64,000 nt of DNA from Dokdonella sp. Its GTDB lineage: Bacteria; Pseudomonadota; Gammaproteobacteria; Xanthomonadales; Rhodanobacteraceae. The stretch spans positions 620,001 through 684,000 of the forward strand of contig JADJQH010000002.1 of assembly GCA_016712865.1 (NCBI GenBank), read 5' to 3'. A program made the translations under genes and the position numbers. Below the pieces are notes generated by a model that worked only from the letters and a program-made list of their open reading frames with translations, ran no database searches and was not told the DNA's origin. This document shows, one piece after another, positions 4,383-20,569 of this stretch. Within the stretch, counting starts at the first letter, position 1. Each line of letters opens with the position of its first letter.

Positions 4383-4470
4383 TTTTTACGGGAATCGGGA
4401 ATTGGGAATGGGGAATTGCGAAAGCACTGCTTCTGACAATTCCCTACTCTCGACTCTCGACTCTCGGCAT
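4383..4470. repeat. GGGAAT-type inverted repeat upstream of tRNA-Gly
   Basis: A left arm CGGGAATCGGGAATTGGG and a right arm of inverse units (CCCTACTCTCGACTCTCG) flank a centre with GCGAAAGCACTGCTT. It is the third member of the family also seen at 1471, 2685, 7010 and 8455. The left arm touches the 5' end of tRNA-Gly on the minus strand, so it forms part of the tRNA spacer transcript. Confidence 0.72.
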
Positions 4471-4474
4471 TTCA

Positions 4475-4579
4475 TGGTGGAGGGAGGTGGATGACTCCGG
4501 GCATCCTGCCCTCCGCCCCTCCGGGGCCGCGCCGCTTTTGCGTCGCGTTAAAATTCGCTCCCGGCGAATTTTTCGAACC
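4475..4579 (-). repeat. T-loop element copy E1 joined to a tRNA-Tyr 3' end fragment
   Basis: On the minus strand GGTTCGA (about 4573-4579) is followed by an element of about 80 nt and then by the last 17 nt of tRNA-Tyr including CCA (4475-4491), identical to the 3' end of the intact tRNA-Tyr at 4640. The element opens with a stem AAATTCGC/GCGAATTT around CGGGA. It continues with a longer imperfect GC stem, a GCCCC-GGA-GGGGC hairpin and GGGC-AGGAT-GCCC, and ends GGAGTC. No tRNA 5' half precedes it, so this is a tRNA 3' fragment plus element, not a gene. It belongs to the family at 4793, 9721, 9913 and about 10012. Confidence 0.75.
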
Positions 4580-4639
4580 TTCATTTCATTTTCGGTGGCT
4601 CTGAACCACCTCCCATGAAATTTTCCGCGCTTTCAAATC

Positions 4640-4725
4640 TGGTGGAGGGAGGTGGATTCGAACCACCGAAGGCGTGAGCCAGCAGATTTACAGTCTGCCC
4701 CCGTTGGCCGCTTGGGTATCCCTCC
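4640..4725 (-). tRNA. tRNA-Tyr (anticodon GTA)
   Basis: This is a long-variable-arm class II tRNA of 86 nt. Acceptor GGAGGGA pairs with TCCCTCC, the anticodon loop CTGTAAA gives GTA, the T arm is GGTGGTTCGAATCCACC, discriminator A, and CCA is encoded. It is the only intact tyrosine tRNA here, lying between an interrupted copy upstream (4786-4935) and a 3' fragment copy downstream (4475-4491), which indicates past tandem duplication at this locus. Confidence 0.97.
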
Positions 4726-4785
4726 AGAATCTCTTTCTCGCTCCTTCTTGTTTTCCACCAACAGCGCCGCTTCGCGTCGCCGGGG

Positions 4786-4935
4786 AGGTGGATGACTCCG
4801 GGCTTCCTGCCCTTCGCCCCTGCGGGGCCAGCCTGTCGGCTGTTCAAATTCGCTCCCGGCGAATTTGTCGAACCACCGAAGGCGTGAGCCAGCAGATTTT
4901 CAGTCTGCCCCCGTTGGCCGCTTGGGTATCCCTCC
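4786..4935 (-). pseudogene. interrupted tRNA-Tyr-like copy with GAA anticodon and T-loop element E2
   Basis: From 4935 downward the sequence matches tRNA-Tyr (5' acceptor GGAGGGA, D arm, variable arm, T stem). The anticodon loop reads CTGAAAA, giving GAA instead of GTA by one base change. The T loop is split: GGTTCGA is followed by an element of about 78 nt (4793-4870) and then ATCCACC. After TCCC the 3' acceptor strand diverges and there is no CCA, so the acceptor stem cannot close fully. The element has stems AAATTCGC/GCGAATTT, CAGCC/GGCTG, GCCCC/GGGGC and GGGC/GCCC. A functional tRNA is unlikely. Confidence 0.72.
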
Positions 4936-7000: not shown

Positions 7001-7009
7001 GGATTGAAT

Positions 7010-7096
7010 CCGGGAATGGAGAATCGGGAATGGAGAATCGGCAACGGCAGCCGGCGGAGCCCTGCCATTACGACTCTCAATTCCCCATTCCCTACT
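7010..7096. repeat. GGGAAT-type inverted repeat between pth and ychF
   Basis: The arms GGGAATGGAGAATCGGGAATGG (as a pattern, about 7012-7040) and the inverse CTCAATTCCCCATTCCC (about 7075-7096) flank a GC-rich centre. It overlaps the last codons or stop of pth by a few bases, so the element supplies the gene's terminal sequence. Same family as at 1471, 2685, 4383 and 8455. Confidence 0.75.
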
Positions 7097-7673
7097 CCCT
7101 GCCCGTATGCAACTGCTTCATGGCTTCGCTGAAGTCACCGGCAATCGCCAGCGGCAACACATCCAGGGCGACGTTGATGCTGTCCAGCATGGCCTGTTCA
7201 TCGACATGGCCGGGCTTGCCAAGCACCCATGAAGTCACCCGATCCTTGTGCCCGGGATGGCCAATGCCGATGCGCAAGCGATGGAATTTGCCATGCCCGA
7301 GGTGCGCGAAGATGTCGCGCAGGCCATTCTGCCCACCATGTCCACCGTCAAACTTGAGCCGCGCCACGCCCGGCGGCAAGTCGAGGTCATCATGCACAAC
7401 CAGCAGCTCGTCGGGCTCGATCTTGTAGTAGCGCAACGCGGAAGTGACTGCCAAACCGCTCTTGTTCATGAACGTGGTTGGTTTGAGCAATTGGAGCGCA
7501 TCCCCACCGATCACGACCTTGGCCGATTCCGAATGCAGCCGGGAATCGATGCCAAAGCGTGCCTGTTCTCGCAACGCCAGCGCGTCGACAAACCAGAAAC
7601 CGGCGTTGTGCCGGTTCCTGAGATGCTCGGCCCCGGGGTTGCCGAGGCCGACGATCATGCGCAAGCGGCTCAT
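7092..7673 (-). CDS. pth: peptidyl-tRNA hydrolase
   Basis: Pth recycles peptidyl-tRNA released from stalled ribosomes by cleaving the ester bond. The 193-residue protein shows the family motifs in order: IVGLGNPG (residues 7-14), the catalytic His region RHNAGF around residue 22, the FMNKSG substrate-binding block near residue 68, and the [11 protein letters not shown] segment containing the conserved Asp near residue 93. It is placed between rplY and ychF as in most Gammaproteobacteria. The start ATG 7673 matches [14 protein letters not shown]. Confidence 0.97.
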
Positions 7674-8551: not shown

Positions 8552-9520
8552 TCAATCCACATACAACGAACTGACCGATTCACCAAAGGCAATCCGGCGA
8601 ATGGTTTCCGCCAGCAGTTCGGCAACCGAAAGCTGGCGAATGCGCTTGCAAGCCTGCGCGGTGGCCGACAGCGGAATCGAATCAGTCACCACCAGCTCAT
8701 CCAGCTGGGAGCCTTCCAGATTCGAAATCGCCGGACCCGACAACACGGCATGCGTACAGTAGGCCACCACCTTGCGCGCTCCATTGCGCTTCAAGGCCGC
8801 GGCCGCCGCACACAAGGTACCCGCGGTATCGACGATGTCATCGACCAGCACGCAAACCTTGTCCTTTACCTCACCGATGATGTTCATCACCGTGGCTTCG
8901 TTGGGCCTGGGCCGGCGCTTGTCGATGATGGCCAGGTCGGCATCATCAAGGCGCTTGGCAATTGCCCTCGCACGCACCACGCCACCAACGTCCGGACTGA
9001 CCACGATCAGGTCCTCGCGCGCGTAGTAGCGCCAGATGTCCGCGAGCAGCACCGGCGATGCGTACACGTTGTCCAGCGGGATATCGAAGAACCCCTGGAT
9101 CTGATCGGCGTGCAGGTCAACCGTCAGTACCCGGTCGGTGCCCACTGCGCTGATCATCTTCGCCGCAACCTTGGCGGTAATCGCCACTCGCGCCGAACGC
9201 GGGCGGCGATCCTGCCGGGCATAGCCGAAGTACGGCAACACCGCGGTGACACTTGCTGCCGAGGCGCGCTTGAGCGCATCCACCAGCACCAGCAGTTCCA
9301 TGAAATTGTCCGCGGTCGGCGCCGAAGTCGGCTGCACGACGAACACTTCCTGGCGCCTCACGTTTTCCTCGATCTCGATCTGCACCTCGCCATCGCTGAA
9401 GCGTCCGACCTGGGCCTTGCCCATGGGCACTCCAAGCTCGCCGCAAATCGCCTGCGCCAGCGGGCGATTTGCATTGCCGCTGAACACCAGGATGCCTGTC
9501 GAATTCGCCGGGGTATTCAC
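8552..9520 (-). CDS. prs: ribose-phosphate pyrophosphokinase
   Basis: Prs makes phosphoribosyl pyrophosphate from ribose 5-phosphate and ATP for nucleotide, His and Trp synthesis. The 322-residue product has the N-terminal GNANRPLA motif, the catalytic flexible loop region [20 protein letters not shown] (about residues 105-125), the [14 protein letters not shown] signature and the PRPP-binding motif [13 protein letters not shown] near residue 225. The order ispE-tRNA-Gln-prs-rplY-pth-ychF is conserved. Here the tRNA-Gln segment directly upstream is heavily rearranged. Confidence 0.98.
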
Positions 9521-9591
9521 CGCAGTGCTCCGTAATGCCGATCATGGCTGCCGATCAAGCGCCACTCTCTGTAACCGGGTTGTTCACAACA

Positions 9592-9666
9592 TGGCTGGGG
9601 CGGCAGGATTCGAACCTGCGTATGCCAGGATCAAAACCTGGTGCCTTACCGCTTGGCGAGCAACAA
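9592..9666 (-). tRNA. tRNA-Gln (anticodon TTG), copy 1: T arm and CCA intact, 5' acceptor strand degenerate
   Basis: The minus strand reads a normal tRNA-Gln D arm (CGCCAAGCGGTAAGGC), the anticodon loop TTTTGAT giving TTG, the T arm GCAGGTTCGAATCCTGC, the 3' acceptor CGCCCCA, G and CCA. The 5' seven bases read TTGTTGC instead of TGGGGCG and cannot pair. Compared with copy 2, four bases are missing at 9660. As read this copy lacks half of its acceptor stem. It may be the real gene with a sequencing error, or a 3' partner whose 5' end was lost. It occupies the conserved ispE-prs tRNA position. Confidence 0.65.
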
Positions 9667-9706
9667 AACCTCTTCATTTTAACCAATGCCGCAAACGACC
9701 TGATTT

Positions 9707-9854
9707 CTGGGGCGGCAGGATGACTCCGGGCCTCCTGCCCTTCGCCCTTCGGGCCAGCGGCTGCGCCGCTGTTCCGATCCGCTCCCGGCGGATCTGGTCG
9801 AACCTGCGTATGCCAGGATCAAAACCTGGTGCCTTACCGCTTGGCGACGCCCCA
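9707..9854 (-). pseudogene. tRNA-Gln (TTG) copy 2 interrupted in the T loop by element E3
   Basis: Both acceptor strands are complete (TGGGGCG at 9854 downward, CGCCCCA ending 9708), as are the D arm and TTG anticodon loop. GGTTCGA is followed by a 76-nt insert and then ATCCTGCC. Removing the insert would leave a perfect tRNA-Gln with discriminator G but no encoded CCA (AAA follows). The insert (within 9721-9800) has hairpins GATCCGC/GCGGATC around CGGGA, AGCGGC/GCCGCT, GCCC/GGGC and GGGC/GCCC, and ends GGAGTC. Listed as a pseudogene because no bacterial tRNA-splicing route is known for this site. Confidence 0.7.
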
Positions 9855-9898
9855 ACAAAACCTCTTCATTTTAACCAATGCCGCAAACGACCTGATTT

Positions 9899-10141
9899 CT
9901 GGGGCGGCAGGATGACTCCGGGCCTCCTGCCCTTCGCCCTTCGGGCCAGCGGCTGCGCCGCTGTTCCGATCCGCTCCCGGCGGATCTGGTCGAACCTGCG
10001 TATGCCAGGATCCCGGGCCTCCTGCCCTTCGCCCTTCGGGCCAGCGGCTGCGCCGCTGTTCCGATCCGCTCCCGGCGGATCTGGTCGAACCTGCGTATGC
10101 CAGGATCAAAACCTGGTGCCTTACCGCTTGGCGACGCCCCA
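9899..10141 (-). pseudogene. tRNA-Gln (TTG) copy 3 with two tandem element copies (E4, E5)
   Basis: The 5' acceptor strand, D arm and TTG anticodon are complete at 10141 downward. After GGTTCGA comes element E5 (about 10012-10087). It runs without its GAGT end into a repeated piece of the tRNA (ATCCTGGCATACGCAGGTTCGA as a pattern, 9990-10012). A full element E4 (9913-9992) and the 3' acceptor without CCA follow. The 47-nt spacer between copy 3 and copy 2 repeats the spacer between copy 2 and copy 1. The unit therefore expanded by tandem duplication, and one junction recombined between GGATC and the element's CCGGGC. Confidence 0.68.
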
Positions 10142-10191
10142 ACAGCGCACAGAAATTTCCGTCCGGATCCGCTACTGAACGGCCCACCCGT

Positions 10192-11082
10192 TCAGGATTC
10201 TTGCCGAGCGTGATCCTTCAGCGTGTTCAGCAAGGGTGAAACATTGACTCCGCGGACGCACCAAGCCCGCATTCCTTCCGGACAGGCGGCCAACCGCGAT
10301 GCTGACGGGGGCGCCTGGACAACTGCAAAAACCACGCTTCCGGTACCCGTCAAGCGCGGATTTCCAAACGGTGCGAGCCAGTCCATTGCCCGCGCCACAG
10401 CCGGGTATCGCGCTCGCACGATGGGTTCGAACGCATTCCCTGTCGCAGCCCCGGAAAGCAAGCCCGCAATTGTCAATGGTGGGCTATCCCGTGTCAATTC
10501 TGGAGCCTGGAACAACGCGCCCGTGGATATGCTGGTCGCGGGGTCCAGCAACAGGAAATCGCGCTCCGGCAAATCCAGCGGCGTGAGCCTTTCCCCCACT
10601 CCTTCGGCAAAGGCGGATCGTCCCTGCACGAACACCGGCACATCCGCGCCCAGCTCCAGCCCCAGCCCTGCCAGTTGTGGCGTCGAAAAGCCGCAACCCC
10701 AAAGCTGGTTGAGAGCAACCAGAACGCTGGCTGCATTGGAGCTTCCTCCGCCCAAGCCACCGCCCAGGGGAATGCGTTTTTCGACGCGGATTTCGGCTCC
10801 CAGCCTGGCATCTGCGCGGACCTGCAACAGGCGTGCGGCGCGAATCGCCAGGTCATCGGCCGGCTCGATGCCTGAATTCTCGCCAAGACGGCGGATTTCG
10901 CCGTTCTCGCGAACCCGGATGTGGATAGTGTCTCCCCAATCGAGCAGTTGGAAGGCTGTCTGCAATTCGTGGTAGCCATCGTCGCGTCGACCGACGATAT
11001 GCAGGAACAGGTTCAATTTGGCGGGCGCGGGCCAAAGACTCCAGCCATCCGCAGGATGGCCAAGGCTCAAGGAAGCCGCCAT
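10192..11082 (-). CDS. ispE: 4-diphosphocytidyl-2-C-methyl-D-erythritol kinase
   Basis: IspE phosphorylates CDP-methylerythritol in the non-mevalonate isoprenoid pathway. The 296-residue GHMP kinase has the N-terminal PAPAKLNLFLHIVGRRDDGYHEL motif, the glycine-rich ATP loop IPLGGGLGGGSSNAA near residues 102-116, and the C-terminal motif 3 GNPRLTGTGSVVFAVV. It overlaps the 3' end of lolB by 16 nt, so the pair is translationally coupled. Position upstream of tRNA-Gln and prs is conserved. It complements ispH farther along in the window. Confidence 0.97.
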   Translation of the reverse strand: MAASLSLGHPADGWSLWPAPAKLNLFLHIVGRRDDGYHELQTAFQLLDWGDTIHIRVRENGEIRRLGENSGIEPADDLAIRAARLLQVRADARLGAEIRVEKRIPLGGGLGGGSSNAASVLVALNQLWGCGFSTPQLAGLGLELGADVPVFVQGRSAFAEGVGERLTPLDLPERDFLLLDPATSISTGALFQAPELTRDSPPLTIAGLLSGAATGNAFEPIVRARYPAVARAMDWLAPFGNPRLTGTGSVVFAVVQAPPSASRLAACPEGMRAWCVRGVNVSPLLNTLKDHARQES

Positions 11083-16046: not shown

Positions 16047-16488
16047 CCCTGTGGGAGCGAGCTTGCTCGCGACGCGATGCCCGACAGCACCTGTGGGAGC
16101 AAGCTTGCTCGCGACTTGGAGCCCGAAGCTGTCGCGTGCGAGCACGCTCCCACAAAAATCGAAACCGCTCGGCACCTGTGGGAGCGAGCTTGCTCGCGAC
16201 GCGATGCCCGACAGCACCTGTGGGAGCGAGCTTGCTCGCGACTTTGTGCATGAAGCTGTCGCGTGCGAGCACGCTCCCACAACAGCCAAAACCACTCGGT
16301 ACCTGTGGGAGCGAGCTTGCTCGCGACTTTGTGCATGAAGCTGTCGCGTGCGAGCACGTTCCCACAACAGCCGAAACCACTCGGTACCTGTAGGAGCGAG
16401 CTTGCTCGCGACGCGATGCCCGACAGCACCTGTAGGAGCGAGCTTGCTCGCGACTTGAGGCCCGAAGCTGTCGCGTGCGAGCACGCTC
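16047..16488. repeat. REP/BIME array 1
   Basis: Alternating palindromes fill this stretch. Forward units are G(T/TG)GGAGCGAGCTTGCTCGCGAC and opposite units are GTCGCGTGCGAGCACGCTCCCAC. They are joined by linkers such as GCGATGCCCGACAGCACCT or TTGGAGCCCGAAGCT. I count by eye about seven forward and four inverse units. The GTAG/GTGG opening plus palindrome is REP-like, and the paired head-to-head arrangement is a BIME. Open frames running through it translate to repeated ELARD peptides and are not genes. Confidence 0.9.
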
Positions 16489-16492
16489 AGGA

Positions 16493-17251
16493 TCAAAGCA
16501 TGCGGCCGATCACGTCGGTTTTCAGGGTTACCGCTGAATCCAGCGCGAGACTCTGACCTTCGCCAATGCTCACCTTGTGGATCGGCGAGAACCACCCGCA
16601 AAGGGTGTTGCGCTTGTTCACTTCTGCAACGCTATTACCGATGAAATAACAAAGCGGCGATACCAGCTTGCCCGGCACGCCTACGCCCGCGACTTGCTCG
16701 GGCTTGATCGTCCAACTCTTCGCAGCTGTGATTGAGGCATTGATCAGGCTCTCGTCCTGGCTGGAAACCTCCGGTACCACGCTGACCGACATGGGCTTGC
16801 CGGTTCCGTCGTAACTCACCTCAACCAGCACGCGCTGGACAGGGGCAAGGCGCCCACTCATCATCTTGCGCATGGCTTCCTTCGGGAATCGGGCGTGTCG
16901 ACCGATTGCGGCAACCTGTCCACCGGTTCGCACATCCTGCACCTTGATGGCAAGTTGCTCGCTGCCTTCGATGGGCACCAATTCAATCTGCACGTTCAGC
17001 CGGGTTTCGGTTGCCACAGGCTCGCTGTTGATGCGGCCGGGATCGAACTGCCAGTTGCGGATCACCGGCTCCAATTTGGCCTGCAAAGCTTCGTCATCCT
17101 TCCCCTGGGCCGCCAACGTGACAATTTTTCCGCTCGCATCCAGGCTCATGTCCCATGCCAAGGTGCGGGTCATTGGTGGCGCGCTGCTGTCGCCGGCAAA
17201 TACCGGCGTGGCAGCAAGCAAAAGCAAGGGCAATACCAACTTGGAGAACAT
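16493..17251 (-). CDS. secreted protein with TonB C-terminal-like domain
   Basis: From ATG 17251, with AAGGAG 7 nt upstream, the 252-codon gene (about 251 residues) has a Sec signal peptide (MFSKLVLPLLLLAATPVFAGD). A mixed alpha/beta region follows. Residues about 115-195 (ARFPKEAMRKMMSGRLAPVQ, then VEVSYDGTGKPMSVSVVPE and AAKSWTIKPEQ) resemble the energy-transducer TonB C-terminal fold. There is no membrane anchor or Pro-rich spacer, so it is not a classical TonB. It lies alone between two REP arrays, each next to a prfA 3' end, which suggests insertion or local duplication. Function unknown. Confidence 0.7.
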   Translation of the reverse strand: MFSKLVLPLLLLAATPVFAGDSSAPPMTRTLAWDMSLDASGKIVTLAAQGKDDEALQAKLEPVIRNWQFDPGRINSEPVATETRLNVQIELVPIEGSEQLAIKVQDVRTGGQVAAIGRHARFPKEAMRKMMSGRLAPVQRVLVEVSYDGTGKPMSVSVVPEVSSQDESLINASITAAKSWTIKPEQVAGVGVPGKLVSPLCYFIGNSVAEVNKRNTLCGWFSPIHKVSIGEGQSLALDSAVTLKTDVIGRML

Positions 17252-17354
17252 GCAAAACTCCTTGGGCCGGGGTTCGCGAACGCGACCGCCGCAACCTGCC
17301 AGTCCGGACAAGGCAACAGCCGCCATCCGCTACACCTTGCCACAATGTCGCAAA

Positions 17355-17489
17355 CTTGTCGACCATCGCCTCAACCTCACCCTGTACCGAATGCCCAAGA
17401 TCATGCAGGGCGACCTGGGCGAACTGATCGACACCCTGACCCGCGAAGACCAGACCGACCAGCTGGCCGGCCTGGCGGAAACACACTGA
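17355..17489 (+). pseudogene. duplicated 3' end fragment of prfA
   Basis: Positions 17355-17489 repeat the last part of prfA (15905-16028) with only a few differences. They encode VDHRLNLTLYRMPKIMQGDL...[15 protein letters not shown] and a TGA stop. This copy keeps the 5 nt missing at 15915 and so retains the normal RF1 reading frame. Nothing upstream encodes the rest of RF1; the similarity fades around 17345. It is followed after about 45 nt by REP array 2, just as prfA is followed by array 1. Confidence 0.85.
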
Positions 17490-17535
17490 GACGCGAAGCT
17501 CCGGCATTCGGTCACCCCGATGATTACCGTTTCAC

Positions 17536-18412
17536 CCGTGGGAGCGAGCTTGCTCGCGACGCGATGCCCGACAGCTCCTGTAGGAGCGAGCTTGCTCGCG
17601 ACTTTATGCATGAAGCTGTCGCATGCGAGCACGCTCCCACAACAATCGAAACCGCGCGGCACCTGTGGGAGCGAGCTTGCCCGCGACGCGATGCCCGACA
17701 GCTCCTGTAGGAGCGAGCTTGCTCGCGACTTTGTGCATGAAGCTGTCGCGTGCGAGCACGCTCCCACAACAGCCAAAACCGCGCGGCACCTGTAGGAGCG
17801 AGCTTGCTCGCGACTTGAAGCCCGAAGCTGTCGCGTGCGAGCACGCTCCCACAAAAGCCAAAACCGCTCGGTACCTGTGGGAGCGAGCTTGCTCGCGACT
17901 TGAAGCCCGAAGCTGTCGCGTGCGAGCACGCTCCCACAAAAGCCGAAGCCGATCTGTACCTGTGGGAGCGAGCTTGCTCGCGACGCAATGCCCGAAGCTG
18001 TCGCGTGCGAGCACGCTCCCACAACAGCCAAAACCACTCGGTACCTGTAGGAGCGAGCTTGCTCGCGACTTTGTGCATGAAGCTGTCGCGTGCGAGCACG
18101 CTCCCACAAAAGCCAAAACCACTCGGCACCTGTAGGAGTGAGCTTGCTCGCGACGCGATGCCCGACAGCACCTGTAGGAGCGAGCTTGCTCGCGACTTGA
18201 GGCCCGAAGCTGTCGCGTGCGAGCACGCTCCCACAAAAGCCGAAACCGCGCGGCACCTGTAGGAGCGAGCTTGCTCGCGACGCGATGCCCGACAGCTCCT
18301 GTAGGAGCGAGCTTGCTCGCGACTTTATGCATGAAGCTGTCGCGTGCGAGCACGCTCCCACAAAAGCCGAAACCGCGCGGTACCTGTGGGAGCGAGCTTG
18401 CTCGCGACGCAA
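17536..18412. repeat. REP/BIME array 2
   Basis: This is a second and longer array of the same two palindromes as at 16047-16488. By eye it holds about 13 forward GAGCGAGCTTGCTCGCGAC units and about 8 inverse units over nearly 880 nt, with periods of about 42 and 85-87 nt. Units differ by single bases (for example GCCCGCGAC near 17671 and GAGTGAGC near 18137). It separates the prfA fragment from the glycosyltransferase-like gene. No coding potential apart from repeat translation. Confidence 0.9.
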
Positions 18413-18524
18413 TGCCCGGCCGGTTGCCTTCGCTGGAACAAAAACGAACAATCCGCTGCGCCGAGATGACTTGTTCGATCACCTTGGGTACCGTTCGCAA
18501 TCCGCCTTCAATCGTGCATTTTCG

Positions 18525-20569
18525 GTGAACGACTCCCTCGAACACATTGCCGCATTGATCAGCCAGGGCCGGCCAGATCTGGCCTGTCCGCTTGCGGAAA
18601 AGGCTCGCGCGCGGTTTCCGGATTCGCTGGACGCGGCACGACTTCACGGTGTCGCCCTGTTGAGCACGGGCCAGGTAACTGCGGCCATCACGGCACTGAA
18701 ACAGGCACTGGCCATTGATGACCAATCCGGTGAAACCCCTGTGCAACCTGGGCTCCGCCTTGCTTGCCGCCGACGATTCTGCGGGTGCACTGCAGGTACT
18801 CGAAGCTGCAACGAAGCTCGCGCCCAATCATGCTGCTGCGCGCAACGGACTGGGTAATGCACGTCGCGCCGCTGGTGAAATTGCGGGTGCACGCGAAGCC
18901 TATTTCGCGGCGACACGCGCTGATCCCACCCATCTCGGCGCCTGGCTGAATCTCGCCGCAGCAGAGTTGGCTACTGACGATGCGCTCGCCTGTGAGCGTA
19001 TTGCCCGCATGATCCTCAAACAAGTGCCGCACCCACGTGCGAGCCTGTTGCTGAGTCAATCCTTGCTCGCACAAAACCGCGCAGCCGAGGCATTGGCGGC
19101 ATGCGAACACGGCTTGGCCAATGCGCCGCAGGATACCGACCTGCTGATGCAACTTGGTCATGTTGCCGATGAAAACAAGCAACTTGAACTTGCCGCATCG
19201 GCGTATCGACGCGCGCTCGATGTGAACGCAGACAACGCGGGCGCGCTGTCGCAACTTGTTTTCATCCAACGCCAGCTGTGCGACTGGAACAATCTCGACG
19301 CACTCTCGCGACGCCTTCACGAGGCCGTGGCGCAAGACCTGCACAACATCGCCCCTTTCGGATTCCTTGCCGAACCGGCACGCGCCGACCAGCAGCTTCG
19401 TTGCGCGCAAAATTTCGCGAAGCGACTCCTGGGAAGGATTGATCCGATGGAGCGAGACTCGCCATTCCCGCGAAGGCCGATGTCCACCGGGCCCTTGCGC
19501 ATCGGATTTGCCTCCAACGGCTTCGGCAATCATCCCACTGGGCTGCTGACTGTCGCGTTTTTCGAAGCCCTGACGACGCTCGATTGCGAAATCCATTTGT
19601 TTGCGACGACAGCCGGGGACGGCTCGCCGATCCAGGAACGACTGCACGCGGCGGCGACGCGCTGGCATGAACTTCATGGCCTCTCACCACGCGGCATGGC
19701 CCATGCCATCGCTCGGGCAAGTGGACGTGCTGGTCGATCTGCGCGTGTGGGGTGGCGGCAACATCAGCGAGGCGCTTGCCTTGCGACCCGCGCCAATGCA
19801 GTTCAATTGGCTGGCCTATCCAGGCACCTCCGGCGCAGCCTGGATCGACCACGTGATTGCCGACGAGATCGTGCTGCCTGATTCCATGCGCGCGCATTTT
19901 TCCGAGCGGGTGATCTGGCTGCCGCACTGCTTCCAGCCATCCGACCCCACGCGTGTTGTGGCGGATCCGCCGCCTCGCAGCGATTGCGGATTGCCCGAAA
20001 CCGGCGCCATCTACACCTGCTTCAACAACAGCTACAAACTTGATCCGCGCAGCATGGCGCGCATCTTCGAGATCCTGCGTCGGGTTCCGCATTCCGTGCT
20101 GTGGTTGCTGCGCGGCCCCACCAGCAGCGATGAGAATCTACGCGGCATTGCGTCATCCGCCGGAATCGATCCGCAGCGCCTTGTTTTCATGGACAAGCTG
20201 CCGCATGCGGATTATCTCGCCCGCTATCGACACGCCGACCTGTTCCTGGACACCGCCATCTACAACGCGCACACCACGGCATCGGATGCGATCTGGGCCG
20301 GCTGCCCGGTGCTGACCACGCCCGGCGAAACCTTTGCCTCGCGCGTCGCCGCCAGCCTCAACCACCACCTCGGCATGCCGGATTTGAACGTCGCCGACGA
20401 TGCCGCGTTCGTTGAATTTGCGGTGAAGGTCGGCCTCGAACGCGATCACCGCAACAACTTGCACCAACGCCTCGCAGAACGCCGCGCACAGTCAGGCCTG
20501 TTCGACATGCAAGCATTCGCCAGCGACTTCCTCACCACGCTGCGCAACATGGCCAATCACCACCCGTAG
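18525..20569 (+). pseudogene. TPR-domain O-GlcNAc transferase-like protein (SPINDLY/GT41 type), frameshifted twice as read
   Basis: The gene starts at GTG 18525 (VNDSLEHIAALISQGRPDLA). N-terminal TPRs (RLHGVALLSTGQVTAAITAL, NLGSALLAADDSAGALQVLE, LGNARRAAGEIAGAREAYFA) lead into a GT41-type catalytic region. That region has RIGFASNGFGNHPTG, LRVWGGGN, NWLAYPGTSGAAWIDHVIAD and DTAIYNAHTTASDAIWAGCPVLT. One extra C in the CCCC at 18736-18739 and one extra G in GGG at 19715-19717 break the frame, and correcting both gives one open frame of about 680 residues. The family adds sugars to proteins, and the type IV pilus locus nearby offers a possible target by inference only. The breaks are probably sequence errors. 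Confidence 0.78.

Follow-up and report, generated by a model that had tools for sequence, protein, structure and literature searches.

tRNA-linked repeats (TLRs), classified in Rfam as RtT (RF00391) and known from tyrT and the rrn operons of Escherichia coli, were, according to PMC8144298, first described in 1978 and have no known function. E. coli K-12 has 22 TLRs at ten loci, each of which closes with 18-19 bp repeating the 3' end of the gene directly upstream (PMC8144298). The same paper records that a claim about the tyrT TLR and recovery from starvation was retracted. RrA, RrB and RrF are counted there as TLRs and bind Hfq and CsrA, and the phenotypes reported for these three RNAs are only modest or unclear (PMC8144298).

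We analyzed a 64,000-nucleotide stretch of a Dokdonella sp. genome (contig JADJQH010000002.1; the window), in which ispE (10192-11082, minus strand) and prs (8552-9520, minus strand) flank three copies of tRNA-Gln(UUG). The array occupies 9592-10141 of the minus strand and is composed as follows.

10085..10141, minus strand: copy A, tRNA-Gln(UUG) 5' part, 57 nt, ending in GGTTCGA
10013..10084, minus strand: truncated TLR core, 72 of 76 nt
9990..10012, minus strand: tRNA-Gln fragment GATCCTGG...GGTTCGA, 23 nt
9914..9989, minus strand: TLR core with four hairpins, 76 nt; Rfam RtT match at 9896-10014, 29.4 bits, E 0.012
9899..9913, minus strand: tRNA-Gln 3' part without CCA, 15 nt
9855..9898, minus strand: spacer, first copy, 44 nt; the repeat unit is 192 nt
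9798..9854, minus strand: copy B, tRNA-Gln 5' part, 57 nt
9722..9797, minus strand: TLR core, 76 nt; Rfam RtT match at 9704-9823, 34.5 bits, E 6.5e-4
9707..9721, minus strand: tRNA-Gln 3' part without CCA, 15 nt
9663..9706, minus strand: spacer, second copy, 44 nt
9592..9662, minus strand: copy C, tRNA-Gln with uninterrupted T loop, encoded CCA and damaged 5' acceptor strand, in the presumed functional gene position; Rfam tRNA match of 42.6 bits over 9603-9657

These coordinates and the identity of the units confirm the first-pass annotation in placing tandem tRNA-Gln(UUG) copies between ispE and prs on the minus strand, and both full inserts split the T loop as GGTTCGA^ATCC, the constant point at which it had located a 76-nt insert. 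The additional, fused insert that it described is the truncated 72-nt core at 10013-10084, which with the 23-nt tRNA-Gln fragment makes up a 95-nt tandem inner duplication in copy A. Within the array, two stretches of 160 nt agree at every base, so the arrangement is not due to chance. ATCCTGCCGCCCCAG is found three times (9899-9913, 9707-9721 and 9595-9609), and removing the insert from copy B does leave a complete tRNA-Gln without CCA, as had been stated. Copy C alone has both an uninterrupted T loop and an encoded CCA. A scan of 9500-10300 for promoters and terminators found none.

As judged from its sequence, the insert is the core of the TLRs. When Rfam was scanned permissively, RtT aligned with the Gln array (34.5 and 29.4 bits) and with a unit downstream of a tRNA-Tyr gene elsewhere in the window (34.4 bits), agreeing with both in the order and architecture of the parts, although all these scores are below the Rfam gathering score of 45 bits; RtT also matched 9 of 12 sampled loci, the best with 41 bits and thus below the same score. 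At tRNA-Tyr, a single intact gene has a unit of one layout upstream and a unit of another downstream. In the layout that we call classical, an intact tRNA comes first and a copy of its 3' end follows; in its mirror image, copies of the 5' part precede an intact tRNA.

4868..4935, minus strand: tRNA-Tyr 5' part of the upstream, mirror-layout unit, 68 nt
4794..4867, minus strand: TLR core splitting the T loop of the upstream tRNA-Tyr copy; identity with the Gln insert 81%
4783..4793, minus strand: tRNA-Tyr 3' piece of the upstream unit, 11 nt
4640..4725, minus strand: intact tRNA-Tyr(GUA), called by ARAGORN
4493..4572, minus strand: TLR core of the downstream, classical-layout unit; Rfam RtT match at 4475-4626, 34.4 bits, E 6.9e-4
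4475..4492, minus strand: copy of the tRNA-Tyr 3' end including CCA, 18 nt

The downstream tRNA-Tyr unit ends as the E. coli TLRs do, in a copy of the 3' end of the gene directly upstream (18 of 18 nt). The Gln units do not, as they have 15 nt, no CCA and their uninterrupted copy downstream. Imperfect palindromes of GGGAATTGGGAATGG-like units lie in the window at 4387-4468 and 7009-7102, and the Rfam mir-H1 matches there look spurious.

To describe the core we aligned inserts picked by a pattern fixing GGTTCGA, GCCCGGAGTC and ATCC, so that invariance at these strings, like the T-loop share of loci L025-L058, which the same pattern supplied, is by construction. Thirty-two inserts passed and one (L047, which has an inner duplication) was left out, giving an alignment of 31 T-loop inserts and 83 columns with four hairpins. 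Eleven of the 21 pairs changed on both sides. Pairing was possible in 98.5% of cells, against a shuffled mean of 84.6%, and both-side changes filled 90 cells, the shuffled mean here being 27.3; when the partner was shifted one column along, pairing fell below 45%. Helices 3 and 4 are nearly invariant in this alignment, partly as a result of the search pattern, which held their end constant. The core is a four-hairpin module of about 67-80 bp with GGA-containing loops. In two loci, L088 and L090, the loop of hairpin 4 contains further hairpins and the core measures 121-126 nt, which looks like the nesting of one hairpin in the loop of another.

A covariance model, R1, was built from the 31 inserts with their flanks excluded; since 3 of the 31 training sequences come from the window, its matches there are by construction. 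Outside the training set, R1 matched the anticodon-loop arrays of L082 and L085 with 47.8-55.4 bits and an E. coli rrn spacer element with 58.8 bits (E 6.4e-10), and it was weak on the E. coli tyrT units, with 18.5 bits (E 0.055) and 18.2 bits. The blastn matches in two E. coli records lie directly behind 5S rRNA, and in both records a copy of the 5S 3' end follows the element. From this sequence and from the description in PMC8144298, we read the element in these records as the spacer between the rrn terminators T1 and T2. The first-pass annotation had offered an undescribed tRNA-targeted element as one of two possibilities. Targeting of tRNA holds, as the module recurs at the same loop position of several tRNAs in many genomes; novelty does not, the module being the core of the TLR/RtT family of E. 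coli.

A phage or plasmid origin of the core was considered and rejected: a pattern search of IMG/VR gave no match, and in the 2 of 14 blastn-matching phage/plasmid records that were examined (L129 and L130) the match lies directly behind a 5S rRNA gene. At another locus (L041:4175-4351), a match to the Rfam sRNA sX4 (RF02223; 44.9 bits, cut-off 70) spans a tRNA-Ser and the start of the next TLR unit, and sX4 may be a related tRNA-plus-repeat transcript.

We next consider where the core sits. At E <= 1e-6, R1 found the core in 45 of 87 family genomes. The 116 distinct hits among the matches listed, most of which were fetched, comprise 18 in T loops, 10 in the anticodon loop of tRNA-Ser(UGA) and 88 elsewhere. 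The first-pass annotation had named wide occurrence at unrelated non-tRNA sites as an observation against its reading, and among the matches listed 68 of the 116 distinct hits have dispersed inverted-repeat flanks of the CTTTG..AAGAGAAAG type, as assigned by flanks without gene annotation; the other 20 of the 88 (again among the matches listed) lack this flank pattern. Many of the dispersed copies are related, and they are therefore not independent events.

The sites share a common step. The insertion points read TTCGA^ATCC in the T loop and CTTGA^AAAC in the tRNA-Ser anticodon loop, the third kind lying in the dispersed inverted repeats, and in 107 of the 116 family-survey hits (among the matches listed) the core is bordered by an A at either end, the A content of the flanks being 0.187. 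A survey of the class, which gave hits at E <= 1e-8 in 32 of 276 genomes and from which 29 loci with 38 hits were fetched, adds D-loop sites at four loci. Three of these (L261, L266 and L274) involve tRNA-Ser(GCT)-like copies, followed by an intact tRNA-Ser(GCT) in L266 and L274; in L261 there was no tRNA within the fetched stretch. In L260, a tRNA-Ser(UGA) copy is split in both its D and T loops, and an intact tRNA-Ser(UGA) comes next.

If the core had been inserted cleanly, joining its flanks would restore a sequence found uninterrupted elsewhere. Among the loci fetched for holding the element, such empty counterparts were found solely outside the T and anticodon loops, for 34 of 116 hits there, a set that includes some decayed tRNA sites; they fall at 12 places, and related copies among them are not independent. 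Seven of the 34 are identical over 40/40 bases, and one such pair, L137 occupied and L142 empty, lies within the Dokdonella genome itself. In an offset control on the same set of 116, with a threshold of 37/40, the exact join matched for 20 hits, the equivalent one-base shift for 15 and other offsets for 0 to 3. Where the core ends in A, the one-base shift produces an identical string. Thus no base was gained or lost, this one-base A ambiguity aside.

Complementarity of the flanks (at least eight pairs between them; 3 of 197 hits with short flanks left out) gave no support for loop targeting at T and anticodon loops and weak support at other sites. Complementary flanks were found at 30 of 52 T-loop hits (shuffles 553/1040, displaced 26/52), at 7 of 21 anticodon-loop hits (shuffles 213/420, displaced 4/21) and at 75 of 100 hits at other sites, some decayed tRNA sites included (shuffles 1265/2000, displaced 50/97). 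Since the flanks at T and anticodon loops are no more complementary than the controls, the description of the target as a hairpin loop rests on the identity of the sites.

The tRNA sites have a further regularity in what stands beside them. A tRNA was counted as intact if ARAGORN called it in the fetched stretch, on the strand of the hit, and if its sequence includes the 7 nt with which the 3' flank begins. By this definition 71 of 80 T- and anticodon-loop hits, in 48 of 53 loci, have such a neighbor. Thirty-two hits have the classical layout, with a 5' match of 6-14 nt and a 3' match of 8-18 nt; 21 of them match all 18 nt of the 3' end, with CCA, and the other 11 match 8-17. In the 39 hits of mirror layout the 3' match is only 7-17 nt, and 30 match the whole 5' part (37, 68 or 75 nt), the other nine matching 7-42 nt only. 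Measured against the intact tRNA, the 3' pieces of mirror units amount to 7-12 of 18 nt at the T loop and 9-17 of 53 nt at the anticodon loop. Wherever an anticodon-loop hit has an intact tRNA, it lies downstream (22 of 22). Elsewhere, at G000:C2:173960-174627 (L076), four TLR-like tandem units (26.8-34.5 bits) follow tRNA-Ser(GCT), and their spacers appear, by eye, to hold inverted copies of the tRNA-Ser(GCT) 3' end.

The Gln array follows the mirror plan, with copy C where the intact gene is expected, and its 3' piece (15 of 18 nt) is longer than the 7-12 nt of T-loop mirror units that have an intact neighbor. Its two hits are among the nine of 80 without an intact tRNA. The remaining seven have individual explanations: L037 and L159 lie at the end of a fetched stretch, the locus of L032:1474 does have an intact tRNA-Gln, L055 has a diverged 3' side and a tRNA upstream, the two hits of L092 are probably misclassified, and the tRNA of L231 is split by an island. 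Only in the Gln array is the expected gene in place and damaged by small changes.

That damage lies in the acceptor arm, where TGGGGCGTCGCC reads TGCTCGCC, and because of it ARAGORN reported no tRNA-Gln in the window and the Rfam tRNA match is only partial. The genome (8 contigs, 3.75 Mb) has 44 matches to the Rfam tRNA model, copy C among them, and neither tRNA-Gln nor tRNA-Ser(UGA) is among the 43 tRNAs that ARAGORN called in the window and in stretches fetched around the Rfam matches. By comparison, tRNA-Gln is matched along 72-75 of its 75 nt in 94 of 97 family genomes; two of the three exceptions are without any tRNA-Gln match, and the third is the Dokdonella genome, where the best match begins at nucleotide 8.

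Other tRNA genes of the assembly are damaged as well. tRNA-Ser(UGA) is present at G000:C1:25888-26077 (loci L123 and L282), broken after TTCGAAT by a stretch that is about nine-tenths G and includes a run of 43 G, after which come the apparent end of a related insert and then the full tRNA 3' end; the locus is probably a second TLR array, with the mostly-G stretch arising from sequencing or assembly. In a tRNA-Pro (G000:C2:393047-393122, L078) the anticodon was called with two bases and the anticodon loop has six, probably through loss of one G from a G run. In an E. coli record labelled 'complete genome', the tyrT/RtT array holds runs of 17 G and 13 C (L131:1475-1491 and 1810-1838), which suggests that TLR arrays are hard to sequence. 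Given such trouble at tRNA-Ser(UGA), tRNA-Pro and E. coli tyrT, the acceptor-arm damage of copy C is probably an assembly error, although it is not a single homopolymer slip, which counts against this reading. Copy C keeps the T loop, the CCA and the prs-side flank, and is most likely the gene that makes tRNA-Gln.

Sequence and covarying structure place the insert in the TLR family, its insertion point recurs, dispersed copies have empty counterparts, and two layouts exist with an intact tRNA beside most units. On this basis we consider it likely, with good confidence, that the insert is a TLR core placed at an A^A step with no target bases duplicated or lost, that copies of the tRNA-Gln 5' part were amplified in tandem before copy C, and that copy C, the likely source of tRNA-Gln, owes its damage to assembly. 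The core would insert at A^A, a pattern seen directly at the dispersed sites and presumed at tRNAs, and would move, or once have moved, as a unit. The intact gene would persist because the site was, or became, duplicated, and the identity of the units suggests that arrays grow by unequal exchange between them. The array may be co-transcribed and the tRNA cut from its 3' end, in which case the intact copy would give rise to tRNA and the interrupted copies to by-product RNA, with copy C presumably intact in the living cell. More tentatively, and leaning somewhat against the idea as a whole, we entertain the TLR core as a minimal non-coding mobile module that some enzyme inserts in trans at A^A in hairpin loops; the copies of tRNA and 5S 3' ends, by which TLRs have been defined since 1978, would then be consequences of its insertion into structural RNA genes, and the rrn T1-T2 spacer carried by common plasmids would be one such insertion.

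Other explanations address either the array or the family. The second possibility of the first-pass annotation, a split or intron-like tRNA in which copies A or B supply tRNA-Gln after removal of the insert from the RNA, would suit an assembled genome without an intact tRNA-Gln(UUG) and a copy B that is a complete tRNA, save for CCA, once its insert is taken out. We nevertheless find it hardly credible: in 39 of 39 mirror units beside an intact neighbor the 3' piece is too short, so that excision could not yield a tRNA, and near-complete tRNA-Gln matches (72-75 of 75 nt) occur in 94 of the 97 family genomes. Furthermore, no Rfam intron family matches the window at cut-off, the core is common at non-tRNA sites, and copy C occupies the expected place of the intact gene. 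It is also very unlikely that the Gln array itself is an artefact of assembly. The same layout recurs at tRNA-Tyr in the window and in other genomes, some of few contigs (one in G025, four in G009, six in G020), which outweighs for us the identity of units over 160 nt, the odd 95-nt inner duplication and the assembly trouble seen in the mostly-G stretch of tRNA-Ser(UGA), the short loop of tRNA-Pro and the G/C runs of the E. coli tyrT array.

With the array taken as real and copy C as its gene, the origin and the upkeep of the units can be viewed in further ways. The mirror layout might derive from the classical one if tandem duplication gave tRNA-TLR-tRNA and a deletion then joined the GGTTCGA of the first tRNA to that of the TLR. 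GGTTCGA is common to both deletion partners, an E. coli tyrT locus has the required order (tRNA-TLR-tRNA-TLR-TLR), and both layouts stand side by side at tRNA-Tyr in the window; yet mirror units at anticodon and D loops would need the same event at other sequences, and no classical unit was found there among the loci examined (22 of 22 anticodon-loop hits have the tRNA downstream; D loops, four loci), which leaves this derivation possible if doubtful. By analogy with RrA, RrB and RrF of E. coli, the units might instead be kept because the processed core RNA works as an sRNA that binds Hfq and CsrA. The conserved, covarying hairpins with GGA-containing loops would fit, as would the binding of RrB to Hfq and CsrA that PMC8144298 includes; set against them are the modest or unclear phenotypes in the same paper, a patchy presence (45 of 87 genomes at E <= 1e-6) and the fact that genomes within one family differ in copy number and in host tRNA, and we think such a role rather unlikely. 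The ends, insertion point, empty counterparts, mirror layout and further loop sites seen in relatives turn the 'odd repeats behind tRNA genes' into a testable question about insertion. There is also a practical warning that TLR arrays can assemble badly, so that an essential tRNA may look lost or split.

Among described systems, the TLR/RtT units of E. coli tyrT are the closest. Both have hairpins with GCCCGAAGGGC, a GAGT-like 3' end, GGTTCGA before the core, ATCC and a tRNA 3' end after it, and tandem copies beside a tRNA. The Gln units differ from them in carrying the whole 57-nt tRNA 5' part, in lacking CCA, in having the copy whose T loop is uninterrupted downstream of them and in scoring below the Rfam cut-off. 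RrA, RrB and RrF, the spacer RNAs between T1 and T2 of E. coli rrn operons, are alike in the R1 match of 58.8 bits behind 5S rRNA, but their host gene is a 5S rRNA gene, two terminators flank them and they do not sit in a tRNA loop.

Integrative islands insert in the anticodon and T loops of tRNA genes and hence at the same sub-sites as the TLR core. Such an island of about 3.8 kb in G066 (L281, about 16100-19915) splits the tRNA-Ser(UGA) copy of a TLR array in its anticodon loop (CTTGA^AA), with CTTGAAA at both ends. The island brings along a complete tRNA-Ser(UGA) and encodes a protein with a caspase domain (PF00656, E 3.3e-12); an integrase was not among the two ORFs of at least 150 aa that overlap 17000-20000 of L281. 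The TLR core, in contrast, is about 75 bp long and non-coding, and comparison with its empty counterparts reveals no direct repeat beyond a single A. REP/RAYT palindromic elements are short hairpin DNAs with dispersed copies and no target duplication, all of which is true of the TLR core. An identification with REP/RAYT was rejected: a Y1 transposase is present in 33 of 45 genomes with the core and 30 of 42 without it, and is thus unrelated to its presence (Fisher p = 1). Group I introns sit in the anticodon loops of bacterial tRNAs and likewise interrupt a tRNA gene in a loop, but they are far longer, no Rfam intron family matches the window, and the interrupted copies here are redundant; a group I intron was also considered directly and rejected, as the seven Rfam matches in the window at gathering score are all to tRNA.

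To the E. coli descriptions, the relatives in Lysobacterales and other Gammaproteobacteria add defined ends, an A^A insertion point, empty counterparts, the mirror layout and sites in anticodon and D loops. Within the literature searched, three features appear to be new: a mirror layout whose units carry whole 5' tRNA parts, sites in anticodon and D loops, and clean insertion at A^A.
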